This document shows positions 1,151 through 24,217 of a stretch of 42,683 bases of DNA, piece after piece. The stretch lies in NCBI GenBank assembly GCA_022775005.1, contig JALFJR010000063.1:1-42683 (forward strand), written 5' to 3'. Origin of the DNA: Parabacteroides sp. (GTDB taxonomy: Bacteria; Bacteroidota; Bacteroidia; Bacteroidales; Tannerellaceae). Position numbers and translations under genes: made by a program. Under the pieces are notes generated by a model. It ran no database searches. It was given only the letters and a program-made list of their open reading frames with translations, and had not been told where the DNA came from. Within the stretch, counting starts at the first letter, position 1, and each line of letters begins with the position of its first letter.

Positions 1151-1789
1151 ATGATATATGAATCAATTATGATGAAGACGGTAATTTTTGCAAGAGTTTC
1201 AACAAGTGTTCAAGAATACGATAGACAAGTAAATGAACTGACAGCATTTGCCAATGGTAATGGTTGGGTTGTCGAAGCTGTGTTTGCCGAAAAAGTGTCG
1301 GGAGCAAAAGCAAACAATGAACGTACCGAACTTCTGAACATGATAAGTTATGTCGAGGCTAACCATATAGATAAGGTATTAGTGACGGAGTTGAGCCGTT
1401 TGGGTCGTGATATCTTGCAAGTCCTTGAAGTTATCGAAATGCTGAATGGTAAGGGTATCAGTCTTTACATTCAAAATTATAATATCGAGACATTGACTAA
1501 GGAAGGTAAGGTTAATGCAATGAGCCAATTCTTGATAACCATTTTGGCAGAGGTTGCACGAATGGAACGGAAGACCATTCGGGAAAGAGTGGAAAGCGGT
1601 TACAAGAACTATCGTGCAGCAGGTGGTAAGGTTGGTCGTAAAGCAGGTTATCAGAAATCGGAATCAATGATGAAAGAGCAGTACACAGAAGAAATCAAGC
1701 TCTTGAAGAAGGGGTATTCATTACGGAACATTTCTAAGATTACGGGTACATCAATCAACACCATACGCAAGTGCAAGAGCCTCATCTAA
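1151..1789 (+). CDS. Small serine recombinase (resolvase/invertase family)
   Basis: A 212-aa site-specific recombinase of the resolvase/invertase type. The N-terminal catalytic domain has the nucleophile serine in IFARVSTSVQEYDRQ and the conserved arginines in ELSRLGRD; the E-helix region ARMERKTIRERVESG precedes a linker and a C-terminal helix-turn-helix (LKKGYSLRNISKITGTSINTIRK). Length fits the small serine recombinases that invert promoters or resolve cointegrates. Translation may begin at the internal ATG at 1169 or 1172 (MKTVIFARVS), because the first ATG is only about 6 bp from the predicted transcript start. Divergent from the XRE regulator. No invertible repeats flanking it were found in the window. 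Confidence 0.85.
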   Translation: MIYESIMMKTVIFARVSTSVQEYDRQVNELTAFANGNGWVVEAVFAEKVSGAKANNERTELLNMISYVEANHIDKVLVTELSRLGRDILQVLEVIEMLNGKGISLYIQNYNIETLTKEGKVNAMSQFLITILAEVARMERKTIRERVESGYKNYRAAGGKVGRKAGYQKSESMMKEQYTEEIKLLKKGYSLRNISKITGTSINTIRKCKSLI

Positions 1790-1790
1790 T

Positions 1791-1821
1791 TTTGCTTTGT
1801 AAATTCTTTTTGGTATATTTG
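1791..1821 (+). promoter_or_regulatory. Bacteroidetes promoter upstream of recombinase leader
   Basis: TTTG (1791-1794), a 19-bp spacer and TATATTTG (1814-1821) form a near-perfect TTTG/TAnnTTTG promoter. It begins right after the small recombinase stop codon, and would transcribe the two tiny ORFs and the large recombinase that follow. Confidence 0.6.
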
Positions 1822-1840
1822 AACATGTGACAAGCGTTCT

Positions 1841-1966
1841 ATGACATTGTGGATAACGGAGGTCGCCAATCAGGCACAAGAAAACCAGCGACAGACGGAA
1901 AATTTAGAAAGGTATCAAAACCAGGTTACTATTGCAAAAATTGATACGGAGATTATCAAAAACTGA
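1841..1966 (+). CDS. Possible 41-aa ORF or gene remnant
   Basis: A short open frame starting MTLWITEVANQAQENQRQ and ending IIKN, rich in Q, N and E, with coiled-coil-like spacing. It begins about 14 bp after the predicted transcript start of the promoter at 1791-1821. I recognise no family. The 160 bp that follow (1967-2126) contain broken stretches open in different frames (for example GYLPTIGLPLLSWLSN near 2030-2080), so this may be the relic of a larger, degraded gene rather than a working peptide. Low confidence. Confidence 0.25.
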   Translation: MTLWITEVANQAQENQRQTENLERYQNQVTIAKIDTEIIKN

Positions 1967-2126
1967 AATGTAGTTCAGTCTTAGCCGCTCCTTGAAGAAG
2001 TAGGTTTATTGCAAACACGAAAGGCAATGGTCGGGTATTTGCCGACAATCGGTTTACCATTGTTGAGCTGGCTATCAAATACCAAAAATAAGTGCCAAGC
2101 GTGGCACACTGAAAATTTTATGCTGA

Positions 2127-2258
2127 ATGTTTAGTGAAGAGGAATTAAAGTCGTATGAAGAAGTATTCAATCAATTAGGCATTACAAGCCAAGAAGAACA
2201 AAAACAAGTACTTGAATTTATGTATTCAATAGGTACAATCATTTATAATAATAAGTAA
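2127..2258 (+). CDS. Small 43-aa protein preceding the large recombinase
   Basis: The frame reads MFSEEELKSYEEVFNQLG and ends IIYNNK, an acidic helical small protein. It stops 17 bp before the large serine recombinase start, in the same direction, so it is likely translated from the same message. Similar small ORFs often precede recombinase genes in Bacteroidetes mobile elements, and it could be a cofactor or directionality-type partner; that role is inference. No domain is recognised. Confidence 0.5.
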   Translation: MFSEEELKSYEEVFNQLGITSQEEQKQVLEFMYSIGTIIYNNK

Positions 2259-2275
2259 AATACAATTTTATAGTT

Positions 2276-3807
2276 ATGAAAAAAAAGAAGGTAAAAGTAA
2301 CAGAATTTTCAAAGTTAGAAAATAAGGTCGCTGCTCTTTGGACAAGAGTAAGCACTGAAAAGCAAGAAAGAAATAATTGCAGTTTAGAGAACCAGCAGCG
2401 TACTTGTAGAGAATACGCTGAACGTCATGGTATCACTATCAAAAAAGAATTTGGTGGCACTCATGAGAGTGCAAAGACGGAAGGTAAGATGTATCGTGAA
2501 ATGATTGCTGAGGTTGCAAGAGATAAAGAAATCAACATCATTTTGGTGTACTCATTTGACCGTTTCAGTCGTGCTGGTTCAGAAGCCATCATGACAAAGG
2601 CATATTTGAAGACCAAGGGTATTTATGTTATATCAGCAACCCAAGCCACTGACCCAGATAGTGCAGCTGGTACATTTATGGAAAACATTCTGTTCTTGTT
2701 CAATCAGTTTGAGAACGATATGCGTAGGGATAAGTGTGTTACAGGTATGAGAGAATGTTTGAAGAAGGGGTATTGGTTCGGGCAGGTCCCATTGGGTTAT
2801 GACCGTAAAAAGGTAGGTCGTGAACATATCATTACCGTCAATGAGGACGGCAAAAAGTTAAAAAATGCTTTTTTATGGAAAGCAAACGAAGGGTTAGGAG
2901 ATATTGCCATAGTGGATAGGTTGAAGTCTTTGGGATTGGATGTTGACCGTAAGCACCTAAACAAAATTTTGCAGAACATTTTCTATTGTGGCTATATCAA
3001 ACATAGTCTTTTAGGTGATGAGATAATCAAAGGTAAACATGAGCCATTGATTGATGAGGATATATTTAATAAGGTAAATGGTCTTTCAAATGCTGGTTAT
3101 GAGCATAGAGAGGTTACGGATGAATTTCCTTTGAAGCGTCATGTTGTATGTTCGGATTGTGGAGGTTATCTTACGGGATATACCATGAAAGCAAGAGGTG
3201 GTAATTATTACAAGTGCAATAAAAAGGGGTGCAAGAGCAATCATAGTACCGATAAGATGCACCAAAAATATACGGAGTTGCTGAATGGGTATAAGATACT
3301 CAGGAACTCATTCCAGTGCTCATAGACGTATTTAGAAAGGTTTTCAAGGATAATAATGATATGAAGGATGAAACTCGCAGGATGCTCTTAAAACGCCAAA
3401 CGGAGTGTAAGCAAAAGTTGGAAAGGGTACAAGTTCGTTATGGCTTGGATGAAATCAGTGATGAGGTTTACCAGACTACTTTGAGGCATTTGACTACTGA
3501 AATGGCAGAAATTAGTAGAGGGTTGGAAGAAGCCAACAAAAACTTATCGAACATGAGCAAATACATTGATGAAGCAGTTGCAATGTCTTGTAAATTAGAT
3601 ACTTTATGGAATAGCGGTAACTTTGAAAACCGTCAAAGTTTACAGAAATTGATATTTCCAGCGGGTGTTTTGTTTGATAAGGAAAATGACGATTATCGAA
3701 CAAAAAATGAGAATGAAGTATTCAAGATATTCCGTAGGTTATCAGCAAGTTACGAAGAAGAAAAACAAAAGCGACAACCGAAATTATTCGATTGTCGCCT
3801 TGTGTCG
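2276..3807 (+). pseudogene. Large serine recombinase, interrupted by a frameshift
   Basis: The first frame (2276-3325) carries the catalytic domain with the nucleophile serine in ALWTRVSTEKQ and the arginine region YSFDRFSRAGSEA. It continues with the Recombinase domain and a zinc beta-ribbon (VVCSDCGGYL and YKCNKKGCKSN). Near 3297-3303 the frame is lost: the expected continuation (QELIPVLIDVFRKVFK) is in another frame, which runs on as the C-terminal coiled-coil half. A one-base deletion explains this. Together the parts give about 510 residues, normal for large serine integrases, so the gene was complete before the lesion. No slippery heptamer is visible, so programmed shifting is unlikely. 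It sits at the right end of the A+T-rich mobile segment and presumably integrated it. Confidence 0.8.
3771..3798. repeat. 28-bp dyad at element/chromosome junction
   Basis: GCGACAAcCGAA (3771-3782) pairs with TTCGaTTGTCGC (3787-3798) with one mismatch and a 4-base centre. It lies at the very 3' end of the recombinase reading frame, 10 bp before the glycosidase remnant starts. A dyad of this size at the junction suits a serine-integrase attachment half-site, or a terminator-like hairpin. The attachment role is inference; the other end of the element is outside the window. Confidence 0.5.
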
Positions 3808-3975
3808 GACAATGGCGACCCCAACGATCCGGAAAGTCTCAGTCGCCCGGAGCGACGTGCCTACTATGGCAAAGCCTTGGTCGTGGTGCGTGGAAACCGA
3901 GAATCCGGCACGCTCACCCTTCGAGCCGAAGCCGAAGGACTGCCGGAAGCAACTTTGCGGATTGCCGTTGATTAA
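3808..3975 (+). pseudogene. Glycoside hydrolase family 2 (beta-galactosidase type), C-terminal fragment
   Basis: The last ~55 codons read NGDPNDPESLSRPERRAYYG, then KALVVVRGNRESGTLTLRAE and a short end. This matches the final immunoglobulin-like domain of Bacteroidetes GH2 beta-galactosidases, where a G(N/D)P motif is followed by RRxAxxGxALVxV and an SGTLTLxAxxxGL strand pattern. The catalytic domains are absent. The fragment is G+C-rich like the chromosome to its right, unlike the A+T-rich recombinase to its left, and it is fused in frame to the recombinase tail. The simplest reading is that the mobile element inserted into the 3' end of a GH2 gene and separated this tail from the rest, which may lie beyond the left edge. 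Confidence 0.7.
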
Positions 3976-13968: not shown

Positions 13969-16065
13969 TTAACTGATTAGGCTCCAATCTTTCTTCTTGG
14001 CAAACAGCGTTTTCAGCCTTTCGCTCAATATCCGGTGCTCCTCGTTCAATAAATCGGGATCTTTGTCAAGCACTTCCATCGCTTGCTCACGGGCATATTG
14101 CAGGATCTGGCCATCGGCTGCCAAATTGGCAATCTTCAGGTCCAATCCCTCGCCACTCTGCCGTGTTCCCTCCAAATCGCCATGTCCCCGAAGACGCAAA
14201 TCCTCCTCAGCGATCTTAAAGCCGTCGTTGCTGTTTACCATGATCTCCAAACGCTTTCTCGTGTCGTTACTCAATTTATACGACGAGACCAAAATGCAAT
14301 AAGACTGCTCCGCGCCTCGACCGACGCGCCCTCGCAACTGATGCAACTGCGAAAGGCCAAACCGCTCCGCGCTCTCAATCACCATCACTGAGGCATTGGG
14401 CACATTCACGCCCACCTCAATCACGGTGGTAGCCAACAGGATTTGTGCCTCACCACTGACAAACTTCTGCATCTCCCGCTCCTTATCCACTGCTTTCATA
14501 CGGCCATGCACCATGCAAACTGTATATTCTGCGAATACCTCCTTAAACGTCTCGAAGCCAGCCTCCAAATCTTTATAATCCAACTTCTCATTGCCCTCGA
14601 TCAACGGATAGACCACATAAACCTGCCGCCCTTTCTGGATCTCCGACCGCAGAAAGGCATACAGCTCAGCTTTCTTATTGTCATAACGATGCAGTGTGCG
14701 GACAGGTTTCCGTCCGGGGGGCAACTCATCAATGACAGAGACATCCAGATCGCCATAGAGTGTCATCGCCAACGTGCGCGGGATGGGGGTAGCCGTCATC
14801 ACCAATACATGGGGAGGCTCCGTATTTTTCGTCCACAACTTGGCTCGCTGCTCCACTCCGAAACGATGCTGCTCATCGATAATCGCCAATCCTAACGTAT
14901 GAAATTGCACTGATTCCTCAATCAACGCATGCGTACCGATCACGATCTGGATCTCCCCCTCCGCAATCGCCGGAAGCAACCGCTCCCGCTCTTTTTTGCG
15001 GGTAGATCCCGTGAGCAACGCCACCTTCACCTCCATGCCTTGCAGGAAATGGCAGATTGTCGCATAGTGCTGAGCCGCCAGAATCTCCGTCGGAGCCATC
15101 AAGCAGGCTTGGCAATGATTATCAAGCGCCAACAGCATCGAGAGCAAACCCACCAAGGTCTTCCCACTGCCTACGTCGCCCTGCAACAGCCGATTCATCT
15201 GTCGTCCACTGCCCATATCAGCCCGGATCTCACGCACCACCCGTTTCTGCGCATTGGTCAACGCAAAAGGCAGGTAGTCTTTATAAAAGGTATTGAAATA
15301 ATCCCCCACGGTCGGGAAAGGAATGCCCTGCAACTTCCGTTTCCGCAAGCCCGCGGTTCGCAGGATGTTCAATTGGATAAAGAATAGTTCGTCAAACTTC
15401 AAGCGCAACTGCGCCTTACGTAGCTTATCGATCGACTCCGGGAAGTGCACATTGCGGATCGCCTCCGTCATCGAGAGCATTCCGATGCGCCCCAACACAT
15501 CCGGCGAAAGGGTCTCCGGAAGCTGCCATTGCAGGGAGCTAAGCAAGGTATATTGCAGATTCTGGATCGCCCGTGAGGGAAGGAAAGCCTTCTTCATCCG
15601 CTCCGTCGTGTTGTAATAAGGGGTCAGTCCTTTTGCCACCTGATCGGCTTGATCGAGCGAGTCAATATCGGGATGTACAATATTATAGGTAGAACCAAAT
15701 GCGGTCGGCTTCCCGAAAACAATATATTCAGTATTTAATTTATACCGATCTTTCGTATAGGAGATACCTTTGAACCAGACTAAATCTATCACCCCGGTTC
15801 CATCGCTAAACTTACCGATCAGCCGTTTGGCACTCCCCTCGCCCACAATGTCGAACAGCACGATCTTGCCCTTCAGCTGGATAAACGGCATATTGCCCTC
15901 CACCTCATTCACTTTGTAGAAGCGGCTGCGGTCGATATATTTATACGGAAAATAGAACAGCAAATCCTCAAACGAGGAGATGCCCGCCTCTTTCTTCAGG
16001 ATCTCCGCCCGCTTGGGCCCGACCCCCGGTAAATACATGATCGATCGTTTATCTAAGTCCAACAT
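13969..16065 (-). CDS. recG: ATP-dependent DNA helicase RecG
   Basis: A 698-aa helicase that remodels stalled replication forks and Holliday junctions. The N-terminal wedge domain (about 1-240) starts MLDLDKRSIMYLPGVGPKRA; the helicase motifs follow: LLQGDVGSGKTLVGLL (Walker A), IIDEQHRFGVEQR (DEQH box), MTATPIPRTLAMTLYGD (motif III), and the C-terminal lobe with QLRGRVGRG and the RecG-specific EEDLRLRGHGDLEGTRQSG. Full length. The frame extends upstream to 16095, but that part overlaps the amidase remnant, so the ATG at 16065 is better. It ends convergently with nothing and is the last housekeeping gene before the accessory cassette. Confidence 0.96.
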   Translation of the reverse strand: MLDLDKRSIMYLPGVGPKRAEILKKEAGISSFEDLLFYFPYKYIDRSRFYKVNEVEGNMPFIQLKGKIVLFDIVGEGSAKRLIGKFSDGTGVIDLVWFKGISYTKDRYKLNTEYIVFGKPTAFGSTYNIVHPDIDSLDQADQVAKGLTPYYNTTERMKKAFLPSRAIQNLQYTLLSSLQWQLPETLSPDVLGRIGMLSMTEAIRNVHFPESIDKLRKAQLRLKFDELFFIQLNILRTAGLRKRKLQGIPFPTVGDYFNTFYKDYLPFALTNAQKRVVREIRADMGSGRQMNRLLQGDVGSGKTLVGLLSMLLALDNHCQACLMAPTEILAAQHYATICHFLQGMEVKVALLTGSTRKKERERLLPAIAEGEIQIVIGTHALIEESVQFHTLGLAIIDEQHRFGVEQRAKLWTKNTEPPHVLVMTATPIPRTLAMTLYGDLDVSVIDELPPGRKPVRTLHRYDNKKAELYAFLRSEIQKGRQVYVVYPLIEGNEKLDYKDLEAGFETFKEVFAEYTVCMVHGRMKAVDKEREMQKFVSGEAQILLATTVIEVGVNVPNASVMVIESAERFGLSQLHQLRGRVGRGAEQSYCILVSSYKLSNDTRKRLEIMVNSNDGFKIAEEDLRLRGHGDLEGTRQSGEGLDLKIANLAADGQILQYAREQAMEVLDKDPDLLNEEHRILSERLKTLFAKKKDWSLIS

Positions 16066-16078
16066 ATTCTCTTGCTCG

Positions 16079-16285
16079 CTAAGAAATTTTCTCACGGCGA
16101 AGATACAAACTTTTGCTTAAACGCTCAATCTCCTCATACTCCTTTCGGGCTTCGAAACAGGGACAGGCCTTGTGGATGGCGGGACTGAGCTGGAAATCTC
16201 AGTCGCAGCGGGTGGCACTGCAATGAATGACCAGGAGGCATACCCCCCGGTCATTCTGATAAAAACTACATCGCTTATCCATCAT
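16079..16285 (-). pseudogene. N-acetylmuramoyl-L-alanine amidase, internally deleted remnant
   Basis: The frame starts MMDKRCSFYQNDRGVCLLVI and reaches VIHCSATRCD, the hallmark first strand of the small T7-lysozyme-like amidases found in Bacteroidales cassettes. A TGA follows at once. After it, the same frame reads DFQLSPAIHKACPCFEARKE and then a short tail, which matches the last strand of such amidases (the KACPCF zinc-cysteine motif near the C-terminus). About 100 codons between the two are missing, so the catalytic core is lost. The start overlaps the smalltalk stop as TAATG, showing the original coupling. A 7-bp inverted repeat (16183-16204) marks the deletion joint. Confidence 0.7.
16183..16204. 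repeat. Inverted repeat at the amidase deletion joint
   Basis: GACTGAG (16183-16189) and CTCAGTC (16198-16204) flank an 8-base loop. The pair lies exactly where the two amidase ends meet and supplies the in-frame stop codon. It may be a trace of how the deletion formed. Confidence 0.5.
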
Positions 16286-16389
16286 TAGATACAAGCGCTA
16301 AGGCCCAATGCACCGGCGATGGCAGAGGCCACCGCAACAATCACTTTGAGGACTGTTCCCCATACTGACTTCTTCATAAACTGCTTCAT
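16285..16389 (-). CDS. Smalltalk protein
   Basis: A 34-aa peptide: basic start MKQFMKKSVWGTVLKVIVAV, then ASAIAGALGLSACI. It is a single hydrophobic helix with small residues in the second half, matching the family called smalltalk protein in Bacteroidetes, which regularly lies between an HU-like gene and an amidase gene. Both neighbours are present here. Its stop overlaps the amidase start (TAATG). The function is unknown; a holin-like or membrane-signalling role is a guess based on its amidase neighbour. Confidence 0.8.
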   Translation of the reverse strand: MKQFMKKSVWGTVLKVIVAVASAIAGALGLSACI

Positions 16390-16410
16390 TTTTAAACTGT
16401 TAAACATTCA

Positions 16411-17091
16411 TTAAACAACATCCGGATTCTCCGGTTCAGGCGTGGAAGGCTTGAAGGTAGCCACGAGGCTGACATCCTCGGTGATGGTGAGGCTACGCTC
16501 AGCATCGGTCACGTCATCGTCCCACTTCACAAACTGGTAGCCGGAGGCGGGGATCGCCTTGACAACTACCACATCATTCTCGTTGTAGAAACCCGCTCCA
16601 TCGAAAGTGCCGCTATTTTCCGGGCTCGCCAACAGCTCCACCTCGAAATCGCCCAGCTTGTCGCCCGCGGAGTTGACCGTCTTGATCAGTTTTCCCGTCC
16701 GGTCGTAGCAAGCGATGTTGACACTCGTGGTGCGCAGCTCGTTCTTGATATCGACCGAAGGGGTGAAGATCACCTTGCGGGCGGTGATCAGGTCCGACGA
16801 GACCTTCTCTACGGTGCTGGCCGAGGCCGCCTTCACGCCGAAACGCATCGTGCCCAACCCGGGGATCGCCACGGAGTGCCCCTCCGTAGCCCACGTCTGG
16901 ATCACGGAGCCAATCGCATCCCAGGCGGCGTTCAACACGCCTCGGTTGATGTTTGAGCGGACCGCCGCCTCTTGGATCACCTTCGAGGCGCTCAGCTTGT
17001 TGTAGATCACGGGCGACAGCACATAGCGATAGGTGCCTGCGTACTTACCGATTTGGATCAATACCTCTTTTGCTTTCAGGTTTATTCCCAT
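16411..17091 (-). CDS. HU-like DNA-binding protein with C-terminal beta-repeat domain
   Basis: A 226-aa protein. Residues 1-125 resemble the HU/IHF-like (HU-HIG) domain of Bacteroidetes: NKLSASKVIQEAAVRSNINR is the helical arm and HSVAIPGLGTMRFGVKA is the saddle strand where HU proteins have the V-x-x-PGFG pattern. The part from about 175 on (VVVVKAIPASGYQFVKWDDD followed by SLVATFKP) is an InlB-type beta-grasp repeat. A proline/glutamate tail ends the protein. HU proteins bend DNA; a C-terminal repeat of this kind is more common on secreted proteins, so where this one acts is unclear. It is upstream of smalltalk and downstream of the DUF4248 gene. Confidence 0.75.
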   Translation of the reverse strand: MGINLKAKEVLIQIGKYAGTYRYVLSPVIYNKLSASKVIQEAAVRSNINRGVLNAAWDAIGSVIQTWATEGHSVAIPGLGTMRFGVKAASASTVEKVSSDLITARKVIFTPSVDIKNELRTTSVNIACYDRTGKLIKTVNSAGDKLGDFEVELLASPENSGTFDGAGFYNENDVVVVKAIPASGYQFVKWDDDVTDAERSLTITEDVSLVATFKPSTPEPENPDVV

Positions 17092-17406
17092 GCAGTTGAT
17101 TCCCTCAGTGACTCAGGTGGACCACGGGCGCTGTGGGAGGCGGCTAACCCGTGGCTTGTTCATCCAAAAAACGCCCGCCGCAAGACATCCTGAGTCGCTA
17201 TCCCTTGGCGAGTGGAGAGGAGATAGTTAGGGCGGGAGATTTCCCTAACTGGAGAAAAATATTTTCCTAACTGGCGAAGTGACCCTTCTCATCTCCTTTT
17301 TCTTTGTTGCAAAATTACTTCCGTCGCTCTCCGCCATCAGCGGTTTCAGCCCGATCGCCTTTGATTTCGCCGGATTCCACAGGATTTTGATGGATTATGA
17401 GGCCAA
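17092..17406. other. 315-bp gap upstream of the HU-like gene
   Basis: No gene is supported here. It holds the repeat/hairpin cluster at 17225-17274 and, closer to the HU start, a G+C-rich stretch. It is probably the control region of the HU-like/smalltalk transcript. Confidence 0.4.
17225..17274. promoter_or_regulatory. Hairpin and direct repeats upstream of HU-like gene
   Basis: AGTTAGGG (17225-17232) and CCCTAACT (17243-17250) form a dyad. TTTCCCTAACTGG (17240-17252) is repeated as TTTTCCTAACTGG at 17262-17274, 22 bp apart, or two helical turns. Three copies of a CCTAACT unit in 50 bp suggest a protein-binding site; a self-regulating HU-like protein would be one candidate. Confidence 0.45.
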
Positions 17407-17637
17407 TTACGGATCCCCCAGATACTTCACGATGAGACTCACTTGGAGCGGGGTGAAACACTTCGTGTGCTTATCGTAGCCGGTGGCCTCCAACGCAGCC
17501 CAAAGCGGGGCGCAACGACGGAGCCAGACTTTCAGGTGGCACACGGCAGTGTCGTGCGTGGAAGTGGGGAAATAGCGCAGGGCCAGCTCCTTCTTGCTGT
17601 ATGCCCTGATCTCGAAAGGTTTGTCTGTGTTGTCCAT
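17407..17637 (-). CDS. DUF4248 domain protein
   Basis: A 76-aa protein: FEIRAYSKKELALRYFPTST, then LKVWLRRCAPLWAALEATGY and FTPLQVSLIVKYLGDP. This is the DUF4248 pattern, a small helix-turn-helix-like protein (ELAxxYxP ... FTPxQVxxIVxxLGxP) common in Bacteroides beside primase-helicase and HU-like genes. The order of motifs (a recognition of A-Y-x-K-x-E-L-A like excisionase/MerR-type proteins) suggests DNA binding, but that is inference. It lies 35 bp downstream of the primase-helicase gene on the same strand. Confidence 0.85.
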   Translation of the reverse strand: MDNTDKPFEIRAYSKKELALRYFPTSTHDTAVCHLKVWLRRCAPLWAALEATGYDKHTKCFTPLQVSLIVKYLGDP

Positions 17638-17672
17638 AAAAAAACAGCCCTATTGATTTGAATACTAAATAT

Positions 17673-19499
17673 TTATACCTCATTCCCAAAGAGGTCGGTC
17701 TCCGGCAGCCAAAAGCCGCTGTCGCTCGACCAGTCGGTGTTCGCCGGGTTGTGCTCCGCATCCCGCTCGCAGGGGCAGTAACGGCCACTGACCGCCTTAT
17801 AGACGAATGAGGCCTGTTTGCCCTTGCTGCCATACTGCTTGCGACGCACCTTATCGACCGAGAGGGTCACGATGCCATGCTCATCGTCTCGATCGACGCA
17901 GAAGACGTAGTCGGCCTTGTTGCCGAAATCGGCGGTGCCCGAGATGTCCTCCAAGGTGATGCGCCGCTTCCGGCCGTCGATCATCATCTCCACCTTGCGG
18001 GGATGCGCCACGAGGAAGATCAGCAGGTCGTTCTTGATGGCGAAGTCGCGCAATGCCCCGATCACGTAGCTATCCCAGGCGTTCTCCGACCGTTGGGCGT
18101 TGTTCTCCTTGAGGATGAAGTTATAGGGGTCGAGCACCAGCATCCGGATGCCCCGTTTGCGCACCAAGGTGAGGGCACGGGCCTGCAAGGTCTCCAACCG
18201 CTGCTCGCTGAAGGGGAGGTCGATCCAGGTCATCCGCTCCCGCATGAACCGCTTGCAACGGAGGAACTGGCCGTAGGAGACACCCAAGTTCTTGCGGTTG
18301 TCGAACGAGCGATCCGCCAGCTTCTCGATCAGCTTGCGGGCATGATCCATCAGCGTGTTCTCGGGGCTCCAGTAGCCCACGTTCCAATCCGTGCGGAGCA
18401 GGAGGCGCAGCACCAACTCGTCGAGCCACTCACTCTTGCCGTCGTTGGTACGCCCGGTGATCAGCGCCAACTGCCCCGTGGCGAAGCTGACGATCCGGTC
18501 GAAATTCTTCCAGCCGGTCGGCACACCCGTCTGCGGGCCATTCTGGTAGAGCGCATCTAATTCCTCCTCGAACGATTCCACCGTGCGGATGTCTTGCAGG
18601 GGCACCGGTTGCGCCTCAGCGATGCGTTGCCGCAGGCTCTCCACCCCGTTTTTGATCAGCTCCTCGTTGGCATCCTTACAGCCCTCACTGAAAAACACCC
18701 GCTTGCAACGCTCCGGCCCGAAGCGACGCACCAGCACCTCGGCGCACTTCACGCCCGGCGCATCCATGTCGGGAGCGACCAAGATCCACTCCTTGTCCTC
18801 GAAGTAGAGCTCATACACCCGGTTGAGGTAGTCGGTGCTGCCATTCGCCCCGCTCGGCAGGCTCACCACGCTCTTGAAGCCGGCGGTGAGCAGGGCCAGC
18901 ACGTCAAACTCCCCCTCGGTGATGATCACCGTCTGCTCGCCCAGGCAGCTATCGAGGTTGTAGGGGATCAGCTCCGCCCCCTTCTCCATCTTGAAGTGCT
19001 TCCGCCCACTGCGGTATTTGCGGTTGATCAGCACCCCCTGCTCAAAGTAGTTGAACACCACGCAATCCTCCTCCTTGCCCGACTGCGGCATGAAGCAGCG
19101 CTCCTCCGTCACCTGCAACTCACGCAGCACGTCGAGGCTCAACTGGCGGGTCGCACAGAGGTAACTGCGCAACTTCTCGCTGAACTGATCGGCGTAGCGA
19201 GGCTCCGCCGCCGGCTTGGGGCGGGTGTAAGCCGTGCGCCGATGCACCAGCTGCACCGCCTTCTCCTTCCGTTCCTGATACGCCCTCGTGTCCATGCGCC
19301 AGTCCGCCCCACAGTTGTGGCAGTGGCAGCAGCCATTGTCGAGGTTCACATAGAGCTCCCGCTCCTTCTTATGCACATTTCGGCGCGCGTCGTGGCACTT
19401 CGGGCAATAGGTACGGATAGCGTTCTGCCCACTCACCGCCTTGGCATTTTGCAACGAGATGCCATAAAAACTCAAATCATACTTACTCGCATTCATCAT
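17673..19499 (-). CDS. TOPRIM primase-helicase (DnaG zinc finger, TOPRIM, DnaB-like ATPase)
   Basis: A 608-aa protein with the layout of phage T7 gp4 or Twinkle. Residues 25-65 form a zinc finger (TYCPKCHDARR, CCHCHNCGADWR). TOPRIM motifs follow near 195-270: VIITEGEFDVLALLTAGFKS with the catalytic glutamate, and VAPDMDAPG with the acidic pair. The C-terminal half is a RecA-type DnaB helicase: Walker A GRTNDGKSEW, Walker B RMLVLDPYNF, and VAHPRK, motif 3. All key residues are present. It would prime and unwind DNA, so the cassette once supported replication of a mobile element. It follows the DUF4373 gene, with four 7-bp tandem repeats between them. Confidence 0.85.
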   Translation of the reverse strand: MMNASKYDLSFYGISLQNAKAVSGQNAIRTYCPKCHDARRNVHKKERELYVNLDNGCCHCHNCGADWRMDTRAYQERKEKAVQLVHRRTAYTRPKPAAEPRYADQFSEKLRSYLCATRQLSLDVLRELQVTEERCFMPQSGKEEDCVVFNYFEQGVLINRKYRSGRKHFKMEKGAELIPYNLDSCLGEQTVIITEGEFDVLALLTAGFKSVVSLPSGANGSTDYLNRVYELYFEDKEWILVAPDMDAPGVKCAEVLVRRFGPERCKRVFFSEGCKDANEELIKNGVESLRQRIAEAQPVPLQDIRTVESFEEELDALYQNGPQTGVPTGWKNFDRIVSFATGQLALITGRTNDGKSEWLDELVLRLLLRTDWNVGYWSPENTLMDHARKLIEKLADRSFDNRKNLGVSYGQFLRCKRFMRERMTWIDLPFSEQRLETLQARALTLVRKRGIRMLVLDPYNFILKENNAQRSENAWDSYVIGALRDFAIKNDLLIFLVAHPRKVEMMIDGRKRRITLEDISGTADFGNKADYVFCVDRDDEHGIVTLSVDKVRRKQYGSKGKQASFVYKAVSGRYCPCERDAEHNPANTDWSSDSGFWLPETDLFGNEV

Positions 19500-19527
19500 T
19501 CAAAACTCAAAACTCAAAATTCAAATC
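19500..19527. repeat. Four 7-bp tandem repeats between primase-helicase and DUF4373 genes
   Basis: TCAAAAC, TCAAAAC, TCAAAAT and TCAAATC run head to tail from 19500 to 19527, filling the gap and covering the last codons of the DUF4373 gene. The unit is a low-complexity spacer type often seen between Bacteroides genes; it may tune translation of the primase gene. Confidence 0.6.
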
Positions 19528-20363
19528 ACAATCCAGCATTGCTCCGCAAAGTCCCAATCGGCCCGCTCATCGGGACGAGGAGGCGCCTCATCGGGCAAAG
19601 GGATGCCGTGATAAAGGCGATGGCCGGGACAGCTGCCCCTGTCCTCGAAGCGATAGGGATTCTCCTTAGGATGCTGCGCCTCATACGCCTCCAACGCCTT
19701 GCGCAGTGCAGGGCCGGTGACAGGATGGGTGGTGAAACAACTGAAATACTGCTTCGCCTCCCGCAGCGAGCGGATACCCCGCAGGTTGTCGTTGGCCTCG
19801 GCGTGCAGCCGAAACTGCCGGATCGCCTCCGTCCAATGGCGAGCCAACAGCCCGCTAAACCCGCTTCGCATCATCACCGCCTCCGCCCACGGATCATCCG
19901 CCCGCAGCTGGTCGAGCAGGTCGGGAGCATCGGCCGCTTTTAGAAGGAGGTCTTTGTCTTTATCTATGTCTTTATCTATATATACGCGCGGGCGCGCTGC
20001 GGGCAGCTCAAAATCAATTTTCGTTTCACCATTCTGCGTTTCCGTGAAACTTTCGCCCTCCTCTTCGAACTCTAAAAAATCAATTGCCGAACGCACAACC
20101 CCCTTCTGATCGATGCGAAACAGGTTCGGGTCATTCACCACGGCCTTCACCGTTGTCGGCGAGGCCCCATGCACCTTGATCGCCTTGGCCTGCGTCAAGG
20201 TGAGGCAGCGGCTGGAACGGCGATACAGCTCCATCAAAATGGCGATATAGACACCAAATCCCCCGATTCTTTTCTGGGCTACCAACTCCGCTATCCGTGC
20301 GTCATCCATCAGGTTGACCGGCAGCTTGATCCATACGATTTTTTTACTTGTTTTCTTGCTCAT
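19521..20363 (-). CDS. DUF4373-type replication-initiator-like protein
   Basis: A 280-aa protein. The N-terminal ~100 residues (WIKLPVNLMDDARIAELVAQ, then IGGFGVYIAILMELYRRSSR and DPNLFRIDQKGVVRSAIDFL) form the winged-helix-like DUF4373/Lin1244 domain seen in phage and plasmid replication-initiator proteins. The middle is acidic and low-complexity (YIDKDIDKDKDLLLKA); the C-terminal ~120 residues are helical and end in a tryptophan-rich DWDFAEQCWIVI. It is the first gene of the primase cassette, and the repeats at 20409-20530 lie just upstream. A role in recognising those sites to start replication is inference from family and position. Confidence 0.7.
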   Translation of the reverse strand: MSKKTSKKIVWIKLPVNLMDDARIAELVAQKRIGGFGVYIAILMELYRRSSRCLTLTQAKAIKVHGASPTTVKAVVNDPNLFRIDQKGVVRSAIDFLEFEEEGESFTETQNGETKIDFELPAARPRVYIDKDIDKDKDLLLKAADAPDLLDQLRADDPWAEAVMMRSGFSGLLARHWTEAIRQFRLHAEANDNLRGIRSLREAKQYFSCFTTHPVTGPALRKALEAYEAQHPKENPYRFEDRGSCPGHRLYHGIPLPDEAPPRPDERADWDFAEQCWIVI

Positions 20364-20408
20364 ACACTTAACATTTAAATGATTATGAGCGCAAGGTAGG
20401 ACGGAAAA

Positions 20409-20530
20409 GTTACTACGTTCGTCCCCTCCCTTTTGTGCGTAGTAACCCGAGCTATAAATGATTCATACGCTGTGAACTATTTTTTCGGCAAAAATCTACA
20501 ACGTTGTAAAATGCCCCTGAAGCGTAGTAA
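20409..20530. promoter_or_regulatory. Three TTACTACG boxes and a 12-bp palindrome upstream of DUF4373 gene
   Basis: GTTACTACG (20409-20417) is inverted as CGTAGTAAC (20438-20446), and GCGTAGTAA recurs at 20522-20530. Between them TACAACGTTGTA (20497-20508) is a perfect palindrome. The cluster lies 45-170 bp upstream of the DUF4373 start. It looks like a set of operators or iterons for the adjoining cassette. Confidence 0.5.
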
Positions 20531-20564
20531 AAAATGGTGGGGGCGGCAAGAAGATAGATTACCC

Positions 20565-21548
20565 TCAACGCAAGCGATCCGGCTTAGGATAAAGATTCAT
20601 CCTGAACGCCTCCACAATATGCGCAATTAATGCCTTCGTCTCCTCTTTCGTGCGCTTACGCTCGCTGCGGATGTCTTTCGGGAGCCTATTCCCATCCTTA
20701 TCGACAAAATTGCGTTTCACAATTGTCCATTTGAACCGCTTATCAGGTTCAGTAGTGACAGGCGGGTTTTCACCGTCACAAAGATCTTTGAACAGGTGGG
20801 TAAGCAAATGCAGTTCCCTCGTCCATTTGATCACTACAGAGGTCTCCTTTCCCATGAAAATCAGCCTGAGTTGACGCATCTTGGTCTCCTTGGCGATCAG
20901 TCCATGCTCTTGCATGAATGGGAAGATGTCTTCCATGACCGCGTCAATTTCTCCTTCGTAGTTAAAATAGCAAGCAGATGAAGAGGATTGATGGGAGTCT
21001 CCTTTTTTCTCCATGCGAGCTAAGAGCTGCGCAATCTCCTTCGAGAGGCTCTCCTCGCTCTCCACATAGACAAGTATCCAGTCAATCAATTCACCTACGA
21101 ACTTCCTGTAGTTAGGGAGGCAAATCTGGTGCATGTGCTCCTCGTTGCCCTTGACATAGCGTGTGCAAAGGCAAGAATAGAGCAGGTCCATCAATCCTTT
21201 ATGATAAAGTGGATCCGGAATTTTGCGCAGCGTCTCCAAAAGGGAGGTATAAATCATGGCGACCTCGGCTATGATGTCCTTGTTTTTGCTATATGCGTCG
21301 ATAATGCGATACTCACCGAAAGTGTCTGTCCAAAGATTCTCACATCGGGAATAGGCTTTCTCAGGGAAACTGATCAGCTCATCCAGCAATTGGATGGCAT
21401 CAATGAATAACTCTTCCGGCGAGATGGGAATGGTACATCGGTGGTCGAGAAACTCCCTGTGTATCTCTCTGCACAAGCGATAAAATGGTTCGTTCACGAA
21501 ATGTAATCTAATCTTCTCCTTCTCAGTTCGTTTGAGGCGTTCTGTCAT
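20565..21548 (-). CDS. Hypothetical protein, 327 aa
   Basis: I do not recognise this protein. It is soluble, mainly helical, and rich in Glu, Lys, Leu and Ile, with a cysteine pair in LLYSCLCTRYVKGNEEHMHQ and a serine-rich patch (HQSSSSACYF) near residue 190. The C-terminus is very basic (RSERKRTKEETKALIAH). It starts divergently from the small operon at 21750, sharing a 200-bp control region, and ends about 200 bp before the DUF4373 gene on the same strand, so it may be part of the cassette. A -7 box (TATCTTTG, minus strand, 21608-21615) fits its promoter. Function unknown. Confidence 0.7.
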   Translation of the reverse strand: MTERLKRTEKEKIRLHFVNEPFYRLCREIHREFLDHRCTIPISPEELFIDAIQLLDELISFPEKAYSRCENLWTDTFGEYRIIDAYSKNKDIIAEVAMIYTSLLETLRKIPDPLYHKGLMDLLYSCLCTRYVKGNEEHMHQICLPNYRKFVGELIDWILVYVESEESLSKEIAQLLARMEKKGDSHQSSSSACYFNYEGEIDAVMEDIFPFMQEHGLIAKETKMRQLRLIFMGKETSVVIKWTRELHLLTHLFKDLCDGENPPVTTEPDKRFKWTIVKRNFVDKDGNRLPKDIRSERKRTKEETKALIAHIVEAFRMNLYPKPDRLR

Positions 21549-21607
21549 CTAATCTATTTATAATGTTATACCGTTTCCTATTCCGATGCTTTTGACCGCA
21601 TTAGCAA

Positions 21608-21615
21608 CAAAGATA
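21608..21615 (-). promoter_or_regulatory. -7 box for the 327-aa gene
   Basis: Minus-strand TATCTTTG matches TAnnTTTG about 60 bp before the ATG at 21548. A -33 box at the usual distance is not clear. Confidence 0.4.
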
Positions 21616-21699
21616 GGGAAAGCCGCCGAGAAATCACCTAATAAACCCCGTTTTTCCCTGTTGAAACGCCACAATGTGATGTCTCTACTTTACCATATG

Positions 21700-21730
21700 T
21701 TGTAAAAGTAAATACTATGTATTACATTTG
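21700..21730 (+). promoter_or_regulatory. Bacteroidetes promoter of the 52-aa/DUF6169-like/MFS operon
   Basis: TTG (21700-21702), a 20-bp spacer and TACATTTG (21723-21730). The box lies downstream of an in-frame ATG at 21717, which shows that the true start of the first gene is the ATG at 21750. Confidence 0.6.
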
Positions 21731-21749
21731 CGGGAAAAAGATTAGTCTT

Positions 21750-21908
21750 ATGAACAATACGACATCACAGACCAGAGAGGATATTTTAGCGAAAGTGGAG
21801 GCTTCCAAAGAAAGAAAGCGCAAACGTCTTGCTGAGATGGAAATTCGTGCACGGGAGTTATTTAAGGAACACACAGGCACAGATCCTAAATATGTTTATT
21901 CGCTATGA
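21750..21908 (+). CDS. Small basic protein, 52 aa
   Basis: A charged helical protein, MNNTTSQTREDILAKVEASK followed by a lysine/arginine-rich stretch (ERKRKRLAEM) and ending KYVYSL. No family is recognised. Its stop overlaps the start of the next gene by 4 bp (ATGA), so the two are translationally coupled. The pair, a small charged helical protein followed by a ~140-aa protein, resembles toxin-antitoxin or partner-protein arrangements in layout only. Start chosen because the promoter -7 box lies after the upstream ATG. Confidence 0.65.
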   Translation: MNNTTSQTREDILAKVEASKERKRKRLAEMEIRARELFKEHTGTDPKYVYSL

Positions 21909-22333
21909 ACCCACTCTGTCTGGGGCATTTAAATAGCGTCTCTCCATATAAAGTTAAACGTGATGAGGCCAGTGGTTTATACTATTTCATCACGAAGAAT
22001 CAAGTGCAGTTAACGATAGACTTCATGGATGATGATCTAATCACAACTGCTGAGTCCTATCAGTTTGTGATAAACAATGCTAACAATCAGCTATGCGAAA
22101 CGAGCGATGGCAAACAGAAGGCTCGTAGTCGTTTATTTAGCTACTGGTTTGAAACCTATGCTTATGCAAAACTGTTTACTTGCATGACAACATCACTCCT
22201 TGATTTAGAAGGAGTATATAATTCTGCAACGTTAATCATTCGGAATGATCATCCGAACTATCGAGACGTAATTGCTGATTTCACTAACATCTCAGCTGTC
22301 TTGAGCGAGAAACCTATTTCTCCGGCATTATGA
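21905..22333 (+). CDS. DUF6169-like protein
   Basis: A 142-aa protein. SPYKVKRDEASGLYYFITKN, then YQFVINNANNQLCETSDGKQ and KARSRLFSYWFETYAY resemble the DUF6169 family of Bacteroidetes, where a Y-x-F-x-T strand is followed by an L-C-x-x-SDG-x-Q-xx-R-xx-x-F-xx-WF motif. The match is from memory of the pattern and is tentative. It overlaps the 52-aa gene by 4 bp and the MFS transporter gene by 4 bp (ATGA both times), giving three coupled genes. The family's function is unknown. Confidence 0.55.
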   Translation: MNPLCLGHLNSVSPYKVKRDEASGLYYFITKNQVQLTIDFMDDDLITTAESYQFVINNANNQLCETSDGKQKARSRLFSYWFETYAYAKLFTCMTTSLLDLEGVYNSATLIIRNDHPNYRDVIADFTNISAVLSEKPISPAL

Positions 22334-23520
22334 ATGCAAATAGAAACGAAGAACGTTTGTGGAACAGAGAGTATGGCAAGGTGATGTGCAGCAACTTCAT
22401 GCTGTTCTTCTCCTTCTACCTGCTTACGCCGCTGCTGCCGATCTATCTGGCGGAACGGTTCGGGGCTGATAAAGACACGATCGGCCTCGTGTTGTCGGGC
22501 TATGTGGTGGCGGCCCTGCTTATCCGACCCTTCAGCGGCTTCATCGTCGATACGTTCGATCGCAAGAAGGTGCTGATGAGCTGTTTTTTCCTCTTTTTCA
22601 TCTGCTTCGCCGGCTATTTAGGAGCGGCCACGCTGCTGCTCTTTGCCATTGTCCGCACCTTCCATGGCCTCCCGTTCGGGGCGACGACCGTTGCCAACAG
22701 CACGGTGGCGATTGACACGTTGCCCTCGTCACGCCGCAACGAGGGGATTGGCTATTACGGTTTGAGCAACAACTTGGCTATGGCCATTGCACCCTCGGCT
22801 GGCATTGGGCTCTACTCGCTGACCGGCGATTTCGACCTGCTTTTCTGGATCTCGCTGATTGCGGCCGGTATCGGATTCTATTGTACGACCACCGTGCGCC
22901 TGCCCAAGCGTCTTCCCATACAGGGGAAGCCTCACCTAAGCGTAGATCGCTTCTTCTTAACACGAGGTTGGCTATTGGCGATCAACATTCTGCTCTTCGG
23001 CCTCTGCTGGGGCGTGATGAGCAACTATGTGGCTATCTACGGCAAAGAGGTGTTCGGTATCACCAACGGCACCGGCGCCTTTTTCGCACTGCTCTCCATC
23101 GGGCTGGTCGTATCCCGGCTTTATGGGGCGAAGTCACTGCGTGAGGGGTATCTGTCTGAGAATGCGATGCAGGGCGCAAGCATCAGTGCTGTTGGCTTTA
23201 CGCTGTTCGTCTTGTCGCCGGGCGAGTGGGCCTATTATCTTTCCGCCTTGCTCATCGGACTGGGCAATGGCCGCATGTTCCCCGCTTTCTTGAACATGTT
23301 CATCTCCGTGGCCCGCAACGACCAGCGAGGCACGGCCAACTCGACCATCCTTACTTCGTGGGACCTCGGAATGGGGTTGGGCATCCTCCTGGGTGGCGTG
23401 TTGATCGAATATGCAGGCTACATGGCGGCTTTCGCCTTCACTGCCGGATCGCAGATCGCCGGTGCCCTTCTGCTACTGTTCCGCACACGGCGGTTCTTCA
23501 TGGAACGGCGGTTGCGCTAA
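22330..23520 (+). CDS. MFS transporter
   Basis: A 396-aa inner-membrane protein with 12 predicted helices. The MFS signature is seen in loop 2-3 (RPFSGFIVDTFDRKKVLMSC) and again in the second half (GLVVSRLYGAKSLREGYLSE). The drug-export type motif GIGLYSLTGDFDLLFWIS and the loop GWLLAINILLFGLCWGVMSN are typical of small-molecule exporters. Substrate cannot be read from the sequence. Start overlaps the DUF6169-like stop by 4 bp. Its 3' end overlaps ispD on the opposite strand by 23 bp. The gene is G+C-rich, unlike the two small genes before it, so the coupling may be recent. Confidence 0.85.
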   Translation: MNANRNEERLWNREYGKVMCSNFMLFFSFYLLTPLLPIYLAERFGADKDTIGLVLSGYVVAALLIRPFSGFIVDTFDRKKVLMSCFFLFFICFAGYLGAATLLLFAIVRTFHGLPFGATTVANSTVAIDTLPSSRRNEGIGYYGLSNNLAMAIAPSAGIGLYSLTGDFDLLFWISLIAAGIGFYCTTTVRLPKRLPIQGKPHLSVDRFFLTRGWLLAINILLFGLCWGVMSNYVAIYGKEVFGITNGTGAFFALLSIGLVVSRLYGAKSLREGYLSENAMQGASISAVGFTLFVLSPGEWAYYLSALLIGLGNGRMFPAFLNMFISVARNDQRGTANSTILTSWDLGMGLGILLGGVLIEYAGYMAAFAFTAGSQIAGALLLLFRTRRFFMERRLR

Positions 23521-24217
23521 CGTCTTGAAACAGGGCTTGCGCAACGATCAGGTCGAAAGGTGTGGTGACCTTGATGTTCTCCCGCAAACCCTCTACCTCA
23601 GCTACCGGTTCACCCATCGTTTCCACGACGGAGGCATCATCGGTAAATTGCTCACTGAAAAGCTGTTCGTAGGCACGCTTCAAGAGTGGGAGCGCAAAGA
23701 CTTGCGGGGTCTGTACGGCTACATACCGACTGCGATCAACGGGATGGCTGCCTCCCTCCGCCTCTCGCTCACGCAACGAGTCGATCATCGGCACAACCGG
23801 GATAGCCGCCTGATGCTGTTCCGCCGCCGCAAAACAGCGGCTAATCATCTCCGGTGTGACAAAGGGACGCACGCCATCATGCACGGCGACCCAGGCCCTG
23901 TCCATCGGCTCACCGCTACGGGCCTGCTCGGCGCATACCCAATCCAACCCCTGCTTCACGGAATGGAAACGGGTAGCTCCGCCATTCACCACGGCATGGG
24001 GCGCTTTGCAACCAATCTCCCGACAGAGCATCGCCCAATAGGCTTGATGATCAACGGGTAATGCCAACACGATATGGGCCTCCGCATCCCAACGATGAAA
24101 CGCCTCCACAGTGTGCATCAACAACGGCTTACCCGCCATCGGAATAAACTGCTTCGGCAGGTCGCCGCCCATCCGAAGGCCTTTCCCTCCGGCTACAATA
24201 ATAATGTATCGGCTCAT
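23498..24217 (-). CDS. ispD: 2-C-methyl-D-erythritol 4-phosphate cytidylyltransferase
   Basis: A 239-aa enzyme of the MEP isoprenoid pathway, joining CTP and MEP to CDP-methylerythritol in the cytoplasm. The nucleotide-binding loop IIVAGGKGLRMGGDLPKQF is at the N-terminus, followed by VAVHDGVRPFVTPEMISRCF with the metal aspartate, and the later VQTPQVFALPLLKRAYEQ and DDASVVETMGEPV motifs. Full length. It overlaps the xseB stop by 4 bp (ATGA) and its own 3' end overlaps the MFS gene on the other strand by 23 bp. Confidence 0.95.
   Translation of the reverse strand: MSRYIIIVAGGKGLRMGGDLPKQFIPMAGKPLLMHTVEAFHRWDAEAHIVLALPVDHQAYWAMLCREIGCKAPHAVVNGGATRFHSVKQGLDWVCAEQARSGEPMDRAWVAVHDGVRPFVTPEMISRCFAAAEQHQAAIPVVPMIDSLREREAEGGSHPVDRSRYVAVQTPQVFALPLLKRAYEQLFSEQFTDDASVVETMGEPVAEVEGLRENIKVTTPFDLIVAQALFQDVSATAVP

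Follow-up and report, generated by a model that had tools for sequence, protein, structure and literature searches.

Gene content of the cassette between ispD and recG

Phage satellites such as PICI and P4-like elements are small chromosomal units with their own replication genes. Here we describe a small chromosomal cassette with replication-type genes in the genome of a Parabacteroides sp. (Tannerellaceae; assembly GCA_022775005.1, contig JALFJR010000063.1). The window, meaning the whole stretch of DNA that was analysed, comprises 42,683 nucleotides, and the cassette is located in it between ispD and recG with all of its genes on the minus strand. In coding direction, the order is U327, a DUF4373-type protein, a primase-helicase, a DUF4248 protein, an HU-HIG protein with an InlB-like domain, the smalltalk peptide and an amidase remnant, followed by recG (13969-16095). 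A sequence-only reading had named six of these genes, with the 327-aa U327 upstream, and Pfam and NCBIfam profiles confirmed five of the families in that place, the amidase remnant being confirmed against Amidase_2 relatives; position 16079, where it had ended the range, falls within recG. Common gut bacteria carry the cassette families in many copies, and no role has been assigned to them. They appear in expression tables in the excerpted parts of one paper (PMC10434189), and no paper describing the cassette was found among the literature matches listed.

The replication module consists of two genes. The larger one (17673-19499, minus strand) encodes a zinc-finger/TOPRIM/DnaB-type primase-helicase of the T7 gp4/Twinkle kind (phrog_239), with profile matches to Toprim_2 (8.7e-9) and DnaB_C (6.1e-7). 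Its best matches among solved structures are a DNA primase/helicase (1.9e-27), which we take to be the phage T7 enzyme, and Twinkle (2.1e-20). Across an alignment of 16 primase-helicases the TOPRIM TEGE, DxD, GKS, DP and AHPRK residues are invariant and the four zinc-site Cys are at least 90% conserved, so the enzyme looks intact, in agreement with the sequence-only reading. A TOPRIM primase and a RecA-like DnaB helicase with conserved motifs are combined in one chain, together with the zinc site, just as in T7 gp4 and Twinkle; unlike its phage counterpart, the window's enzyme is encoded in the chromosome, as part of a cassette with HU, DUF4248 and smalltalk, and not in a phage genome. The second gene (19521-20363, minus strand) encodes a protein with Lin1244_N (6.9e-6) and DUF7833 (5e-12) domains, an architecture that presumably equals DUF4373, and its product is likely a replication initiator or helicase loader. 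Three IMG/VR relatives of this protein match PHROG families of replication initiation, O-like or DnaD-like loaders, and three of its seven best BFVD matches bear Lin1244-like, replisome organizer or replication initiation names, with low TM-scores. Upstream of the gene, three copies of TACTACG (20411-20529; three of the window's four) are tentative candidates for initiator or regulator sites.

Downstream of the enzyme follow two genes for proteins of putative DNA-binding type. The DUF4248 protein (17407-17637, minus strand; PF14053, 1.3e-27) appears HTH-like by eye only. The HU-HIG protein (16411-17091, minus strand) matches PF18291 at 3.1e-13 and 50.3 bits, compared with a gathering score of 26.2, carries a second, Flg_new_2/InlB-like domain (PF18998, 7.3e-12), and ends in EPENPDVV, a tail that is shared within the genome. 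Two copies of an 18-nt repeat, 22 bp apart, lie in the gap between these genes (17239-17278); a like pair with the same 22-bp spacing occurs in the same gap of the nearest relative, genome G007, and the pair could be an operator.

The smalltalk peptide (16285-16407, minus strand) belongs to NF033879/DUF6486, with scores above the cut-offs for both PF20096 (2.5e-14; 52.2 vs 24.7 bits) and NF033879 (3.8e-14; 53 vs 22.7 bits). Three in-frame ATGs give 40, 34 or 30 aa, the core MKKSVW... starting from 16377; the peptide is hydrophobic, and its C-terminal end is a lipobox-like LSAC plus one residue. Its best PHROG match is a holin family, a weak one (E 0.03), and a membrane arm formed by the peptide is plausible. 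The last gene is an Amidase_2 remnant (16127-16282, minus strand). It joins about 30 N-terminal residues (16193-16282) of Amidase_2 relatives directly to 23 C-terminal ones (16127-16195), has a stop where they meet, and lacks about 95 residues through a large internal deletion. The 45-aa open reading frame (ORF) listed at this position uses a different frame and matches no Pfam family. The amidase of the window's cassette is therefore dead, as the sequence-only reading had said.

U327 (20565-21548, minus strand) has no family match among Pfam and NCBIfam profiles, and its C-terminal domain (residues 188-318) is common to a 568-aa protein in the same place in G007. Relatives were found only beside this cassette lineage, namely in the window, in G007 and on C40, another contig of the window's own genome (G000). 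U327 lies outside the DNA block common to window and G007. A candidate kin in other cassettes, U391, was rejected (phmmer E 0.1).

The exchangeable enzyme slot

Smalltalk is present in 22/38 genomes of the window's genus and in 36/40 genomes of a second genus. By our own profile, 87 smalltalk loci were compared, drawn from 45 fetched of 50 same-genus matches (L061 gave no match), from 40 of more than 150 second-genus matches, and from metagenome bins (L041, L042 and L047; L046 gave no match). The slot count uses the 70 loci with at least 5 kb upstream, 17 with less than 5 kb being left out. The profiles for the slot derive from clusters within this set of loci itself, and their labels were given by eye except for those scanned with Pfam.

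A replicative enzyme is encoded in 31/70 loci, and it is of one of three kinds: T7-gp4/Twinkle type (12), DUF3987 (11) or BT4734-VapE (8). Two slot enzymes never occur together (0/70 loci; random placement would give such complete separation with a probability of 0.003). The enzyme is on the same strand as smalltalk and starts at a median of 3.2 to 3.5 kb upstream of it (range 2.8 to 5.9). All 31 loci encode HU, and all 31 have DUF4248, on either strand, between enzyme and HU. The 39 loci without a slot enzyme have HU in 35 cases, DUF4248 in 8 and a downstream amidase in 2, and Fisher tests between the two groups give 1.4e-12 for DUF4248 and 1.3e-7 for the amidase. Because DUF4248 accompanies every slot enzyme as opposed to 8/39 loci without one, the association of the genes is not due to chance. 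The order conserved in Bacteroidales that the sequence-only reading had expected is thus found; its expectation that the genes occur together holds in one direction, in that a slot enzyme always comes with DUF4248 and HU, whereas 39/70 smalltalk loci (35 with HU) do without the enzyme. Its view of the primase-helicase as a fixed part of the set fell, the enzyme being one of three alternatives.

Each enzyme tends to bring its own partner. The T7-gp4-type enzyme is preceded by DUF4373 in 11/12 loci and DUF3987 by a BT4734_N protein in 10/11; the scanned VapE representative has a fused BT4734 domain, and the DUF3987 representative has PriCT-2. The enzyme slot is exchangeable, and whole phage-type replication modules have been traded ahead of the DUF4248-HU-smalltalk set. 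Twelve changes of the slot label are needed on a tree built from the 31 HU proteins, compared with a minimum of two (shuffled mean 14.6, as low in 15/200), and the starred branches force at least two (T7-gp4 type), four and four changes. As a control, the 20 recG loci were compared, and a single locus accounted for both the one VapE and the one integrase match obtained. The exchange fits a precedent in mobile-element primases, because VirE and DUF3987, according to the excerpted parts of Kazlauskas et al. 2018 (PMC5862659), are predicted helicases that replace DnaB or RepA there. In both settings VirE, DUF3987 and DnaB-type ATPases interchange beside primases; as far as those excerpts go, the swap is mostly within one protein, in contrast to the whole initiator/primase-helicase modules swapped in the cassette. 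Since the slot is exchangeable, any replicative primase-helicase seems to satisfy the constant genes, and this suggests that it is the unit itself that is replicated.

The membrane and wall genes vary more. An amidase starts less than 1 kb downstream in 20/31 slot-enzyme loci (5/12 of the T7-gp4 type, 9/11 DUF3987 and 6/8 VapE); in L222 it starts 28 bases too early for this rule, and counting it gives 6/12 primase-helicase loci and 21/31 overall. Loci without an intact amidase are common among the primase-helicase type. The smalltalk ORF measures 30-36 aa in 63/87 loci, and a Cys lies within its last six residues in 50/87, including 23/31 slot-enzyme loci and 14/39 others among those in the slot count. 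There seem to be two sequence kinds of smalltalk, and many copies resemble a bare lipoprotein signal peptide with a lipobox-like motif near the end; our own lipobox-like pattern fits 49/87.

The neighbourhood of many copies raises another explanation, that the cassette regulates or helps shuffle adjacent capsular polysaccharide loci. By eye, sugar-transferase, glycosyltransferase or aminotransferase genes occur in 18/31 slot-enzyme loci compared with 7/39 others, a tyrosine recombinase occurs in 9/31 vs 1/39 (Pfam-confirmed in one), and a NusG/UpxY-like gene with a Pfam match below cut-off lies near some loci. In addition, the P. gingivalis HU gene PG0121 flanks a capsule operon, according to the excerpt of PMC3969353. 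However, no gene of those profiles is found beside the window's copy or its G007 counterpart, the recombinase occurs in 0/12 primase-helicase loci, and a primase-helicase would be superfluous for regulation, so that we consider a capsule-related role very unlikely.

Copies, losses and signs of mobility

A full-length relative of the primase-helicase is present in 2/38 genomes of the genus, and a third genome has a partial match. One of its carriers, G007, allows the site in the window to be read directly, as its RecG is 97% identical to the window's and its ispD-recG site is empty. DNA homology between the window and G007 at this locus (L093) ends at 16119 and resumes at 23535, which delimits an insertion (16120-23534) that holds the cassette, U327, an orf63-DUF6169 pair and an MFS gene. 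Apart from one 83-bp piece, host sequence near recG and ispD shows 84-93% identity between the window's genome and G007. G007 has the same five-gene block (~85% DNA identity) on the same contig, ~45 kb from its empty ispD-recG site. The common block (16282-20414, minus strand; 84-86% identity) begins 51 bases ahead of DUF4373, ends shortly after the smalltalk stop codon, and leaves the amidase as well as U327 outside.

The window's own genome retains a trace at the G007 site. On contig C40 (locus L271) the same upstream flank (98%) is followed by a gene of 494 aa related to the 568-aa gene, one of 700 aa and a U327-like piece. The first ~780 bases of DUF4373 (97.2% identical to G007) come next and run straight into a segment made up of the smalltalk end and the downstream flank (93.8%). 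Compared with the intact copy of G007 (L086), the break lies at a 12-bp repeat, one copy of which is in the DUF4373 gene of G007 and the other in its smalltalk gene; the 3.9 kb lost from C40 included the primase-helicase, DUF4248 and HU genes and the greater part of smalltalk. Over DUF4373 the window's copy is only 81% identical to this remnant, so the two are separate copies. The lineage therefore had at least two cassettes, one at the G007 site (intact in G007, deleted in G000) and one at the window's site (absent from the ispD-recG site of G007). Movement of one cassette between the two sites was considered and rejected, as G000 retains the 97%-identical deleted copy there.

Similar comparisons were made at other loci. 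RecG was sought in the 38 genus genomes and 20 loci were read (L093-L112): ispD adjoins recG in eight, other genes sit between them in six, and six have no ispD match beside recG. Because of the six relatives with other genes in between, the ispD-recG junction may be an insertion hot spot. L038, a second and shorter DUF4373-primase-helicase block, has flanks that are non-homologous in G007; a deleted counterpart elsewhere was not sought. Eight pairs of slot-enzyme loci have DNA-matching cores. In five of them both flanks were measured and none matches on both sides, two matching partly on one side (0.57 and 0.43), and the single measurable flank of the other three is non-matching.

These scars also fit a rival explanation, in which the replication module is debris left by decayed prophages or integrative elements and functionless here. 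The dead amidase, the 3.9-kb deletion at the 12-bp repeat, the lack of mobility genes in the scanned products and the presence of the module in viral contigs are all consistent with it. Against it, order and spacing are kept over 31 loci and the enzyme motifs are conserved, and we judge mere debris to be decidedly unlikely.

Viral collections contain the cassette in part. The 83 phage and IMG/VR stretches compared were all selected for carrying the primase-helicase; in addition they show a DUF4373-type protein (13), an integrase match (9), HU by our own profile (4), DUF4248 (3), an amidase (3) and smalltalk (1). Most of the cassette is found on two faecal scaffolds deposited as Bacteriophage sp., L117 and L118, whose HU proteins have EAPDPAA-type tails; by profile L117 has neither DUF4373 nor smalltalk, and L118 has no amidase. 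These are perhaps host contamination of a virome, or packaged DNA. Plasmid records, searched with HU and not with the primase-helicase, gave no match. No relaxase or conjugation gene was found among the gene products scanned with Pfam or NCBIfam, which provides no sign of a plasmid or an integrative conjugative element.

Taken together, the fixed gene order, the exchangeable slot, the empty ispD-recG site in G007, the related copy elsewhere and the deletion scar in G000 lead us to favour, tentatively and at slightly under an even chance, a phage-derived, satellite-like replication cassette that is multi-copy, gained and lost at different chromosomal sites, and decaying here. Like phage satellites (PICI, P4-like and, as far as the excerpted source on it goes, PICMI), it is a small chromosomal unit with patchy presence and, judging by homology, with a replication module of its own; different from them, it shows neither att repeats among the pairs listed nor a gene for an integrase, packaging or capsid remodelling. 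Copies would come and go at several sites, with a putative part in replication and lysis. In the mechanism proposed, the DUF4373 protein would be a DnaD/O-like initiator that marks an origin upstream of its own gene and loads the T7-gp4/Twinkle-type primase-helicase; DUF4248 and HU-HIG would bind cassette DNA and control or shape its replication; and smalltalk, with the amidase where intact, might form a membrane and wall arm for release, the window's cassette having lost its own amidase. Since no integrase, relaxase or capsid gene was seen, the unit would need a helper phage, a recombinase of the host or homologous recombination to move, which amounts to satellite-like behaviour. Of the satellite or plasmid-like element proposed in the sequence-only reading, the phage- or mobile-type replication genes and the copies at different places in two close relatives are upheld.

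Several observations weigh against the satellite-like cassette. Among the gene products of 16117-23520 no integrase was found with Pfam or NCBIfam, and the repeat pairs listed include no terminal repeats or target-site duplications at the ends of block or insertion, where conserved repeats had been suggested. The window's HU as query finds nothing in plasmids, phage records or IMG/VR. Of 148 genomes sampled across the order, G000 and two second-genus genomes have smalltalk, which limits it there to two genera, bar one match below cut-off. The window and G007 copies are not one moved copy, movement being read from presence and absence, and simple deletion accounts for cassette loss at least once (L271). 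The flank comparison is blurred, as variable capsule-type genes flank many copies. The HU tree is unsure owing to very long branches, and the T7-gp4 label is clustered on it (5 changes against a shuffled mean of 9.7, as low in 1/500), so exchange of this type is rarer. As for the initiator, the sole PHROG match of the window's DUF4373 protein is a family of unknown function (0.0022), and PDB and BFVD contain no fold match with E <= 0.001. TACTACG as a general origin repeat was rejected, because the motif, picked after looking, occurs in 3/16 upstream regions (two copies in G007, one in L221, none in the other 13).

The shared HU tail and the role of the cassette

Many HU-HIG proteins have a short C-terminal tail in common with others of their genome, and this tail differs between clades, as seen in the window's protein and in loci L001-L019 and L240-L269. 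The tail is ENPDVV-like in G000 and G007, SESPDEI in G004, EAPDPAA in G197 and ENPLG in others. It is present on 12/19 HU-HIG matches of G000; of the other seven, five are proteins of ~210 aa whose ends differ, one is an ordinary 90-aa HU and one is short. PF18291 matches 19, 17, 23 and 34 places in four genomes and also catches ordinary HU (9/14 control genomes).

The likeness was measured on 70/74 smalltalk-linked HU proteins from 43 genomes, leaving out three without a genome handle and one short protein. Same-genome pairs (44) have an identity of 0.88 over the last seven residues, whereas 2000 shuffles, which ignore relatedness, average 0.21 and do not exceed 0.37. The last five residues are identical in 13/18 genomes with two or more smalltalk-linked HUs; G000, G007 and G032 show one or two residue differences, and G016 and G026 have loose tails. 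Among all fetched HU-HIG proteins, pairs with 25-35% body identity have a tail identity of 0.51 within vs 0.16 between genomes. Tail codons differ between paralogs, including AGY vs TCN serine in G004, which argues for selection at the protein level rather than recent gene conversion. The tail also adds a point against mere debris, as it is alike within each genome despite different codons.

Three simpler descriptions of the tail were rejected. ENPDVV is not a universal HU motif, being clade-specific, and the tail is not exclusive to HU, since a DUF6261 protein of G007 (L039 74-628) bears the same one. That all HU-HIG proteins without a fused HTH carry it was not borne out, Pfam finding an HTH weakly in only one of 10 tail-less proteins scanned; the ordinary 90-aa HU is also tail-less. 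No report of the shared tail was found among the literature matches listed, most subscription papers lying outside the search. The sharing of the tail suggests that the members of this large protein family have a partner in common. In a bolder extension of the satellite-like reading, which we regard as doubtful, the cassettes would be an undescribed class of integrase-less mobile replication units of Bacteroidales that trade whole initiator/primase-helicase modules, and the clade-specific tail that their HU proteins have in common with HU-HIG paralogs of the genome, and with at least one DUF6261 protein, would address them to a fast-evolving host partner.

The expansion of HU-HIG in Bacteroidetes has reportedly been interpreted by Burroughs and co-workers (2017) as a means of recognising and pre-empting invasive elements. 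The window's HU shares with that expansion the PF18291 domain plus an added domain and the many copies per genome; it differs in being tied to one of three replicative enzymes and in a clade-specific tail common to paralogs. Accordingly, the cassette could be a chromosomal anti-element system, in which HU-HIG and DUF4248 would sense incoming replicons, the replicase would act as bait or interference, and smalltalk and amidase would kill the infected cell. The many HU-HIG copies, inflated by the ordinary HU that PF18291 also catches, agree with this, and patchy presence equally suits defence islands. However, PADLOC gave no convincing defence family for any of 10 proteins, the weak matches being the primase-helicase (4.6e-4 and 9.3e-4) and the DUF6169 protein (3.7e-3), and three different complete initiator/primase-helicase modules in the slot are left unexplained, so a defence role appears unlikely. 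A phenotype has been described for one member of the families: deletion of the P. gingivalis DUF4248 gene PG_RS02100 leads to hyperpigmentation and higher oxidative-stress tolerance, according to the excerpt of PMC6231650.

Two further features of the window may be mentioned. A small ORF and a DUF6169 gene lie side by side next to smalltalk cassettes, in the window (21717-22333) and in L021 (13355-14184), with a DUF6169-like gene also in L078, and they are possibly a two-gene unit. In addition, the window has a low-GC end (1151-3975) with recombinase-like ORFs by eye, of which 2276-3325 and 3316-3975 overlap in different frames, as if they were one split gene.

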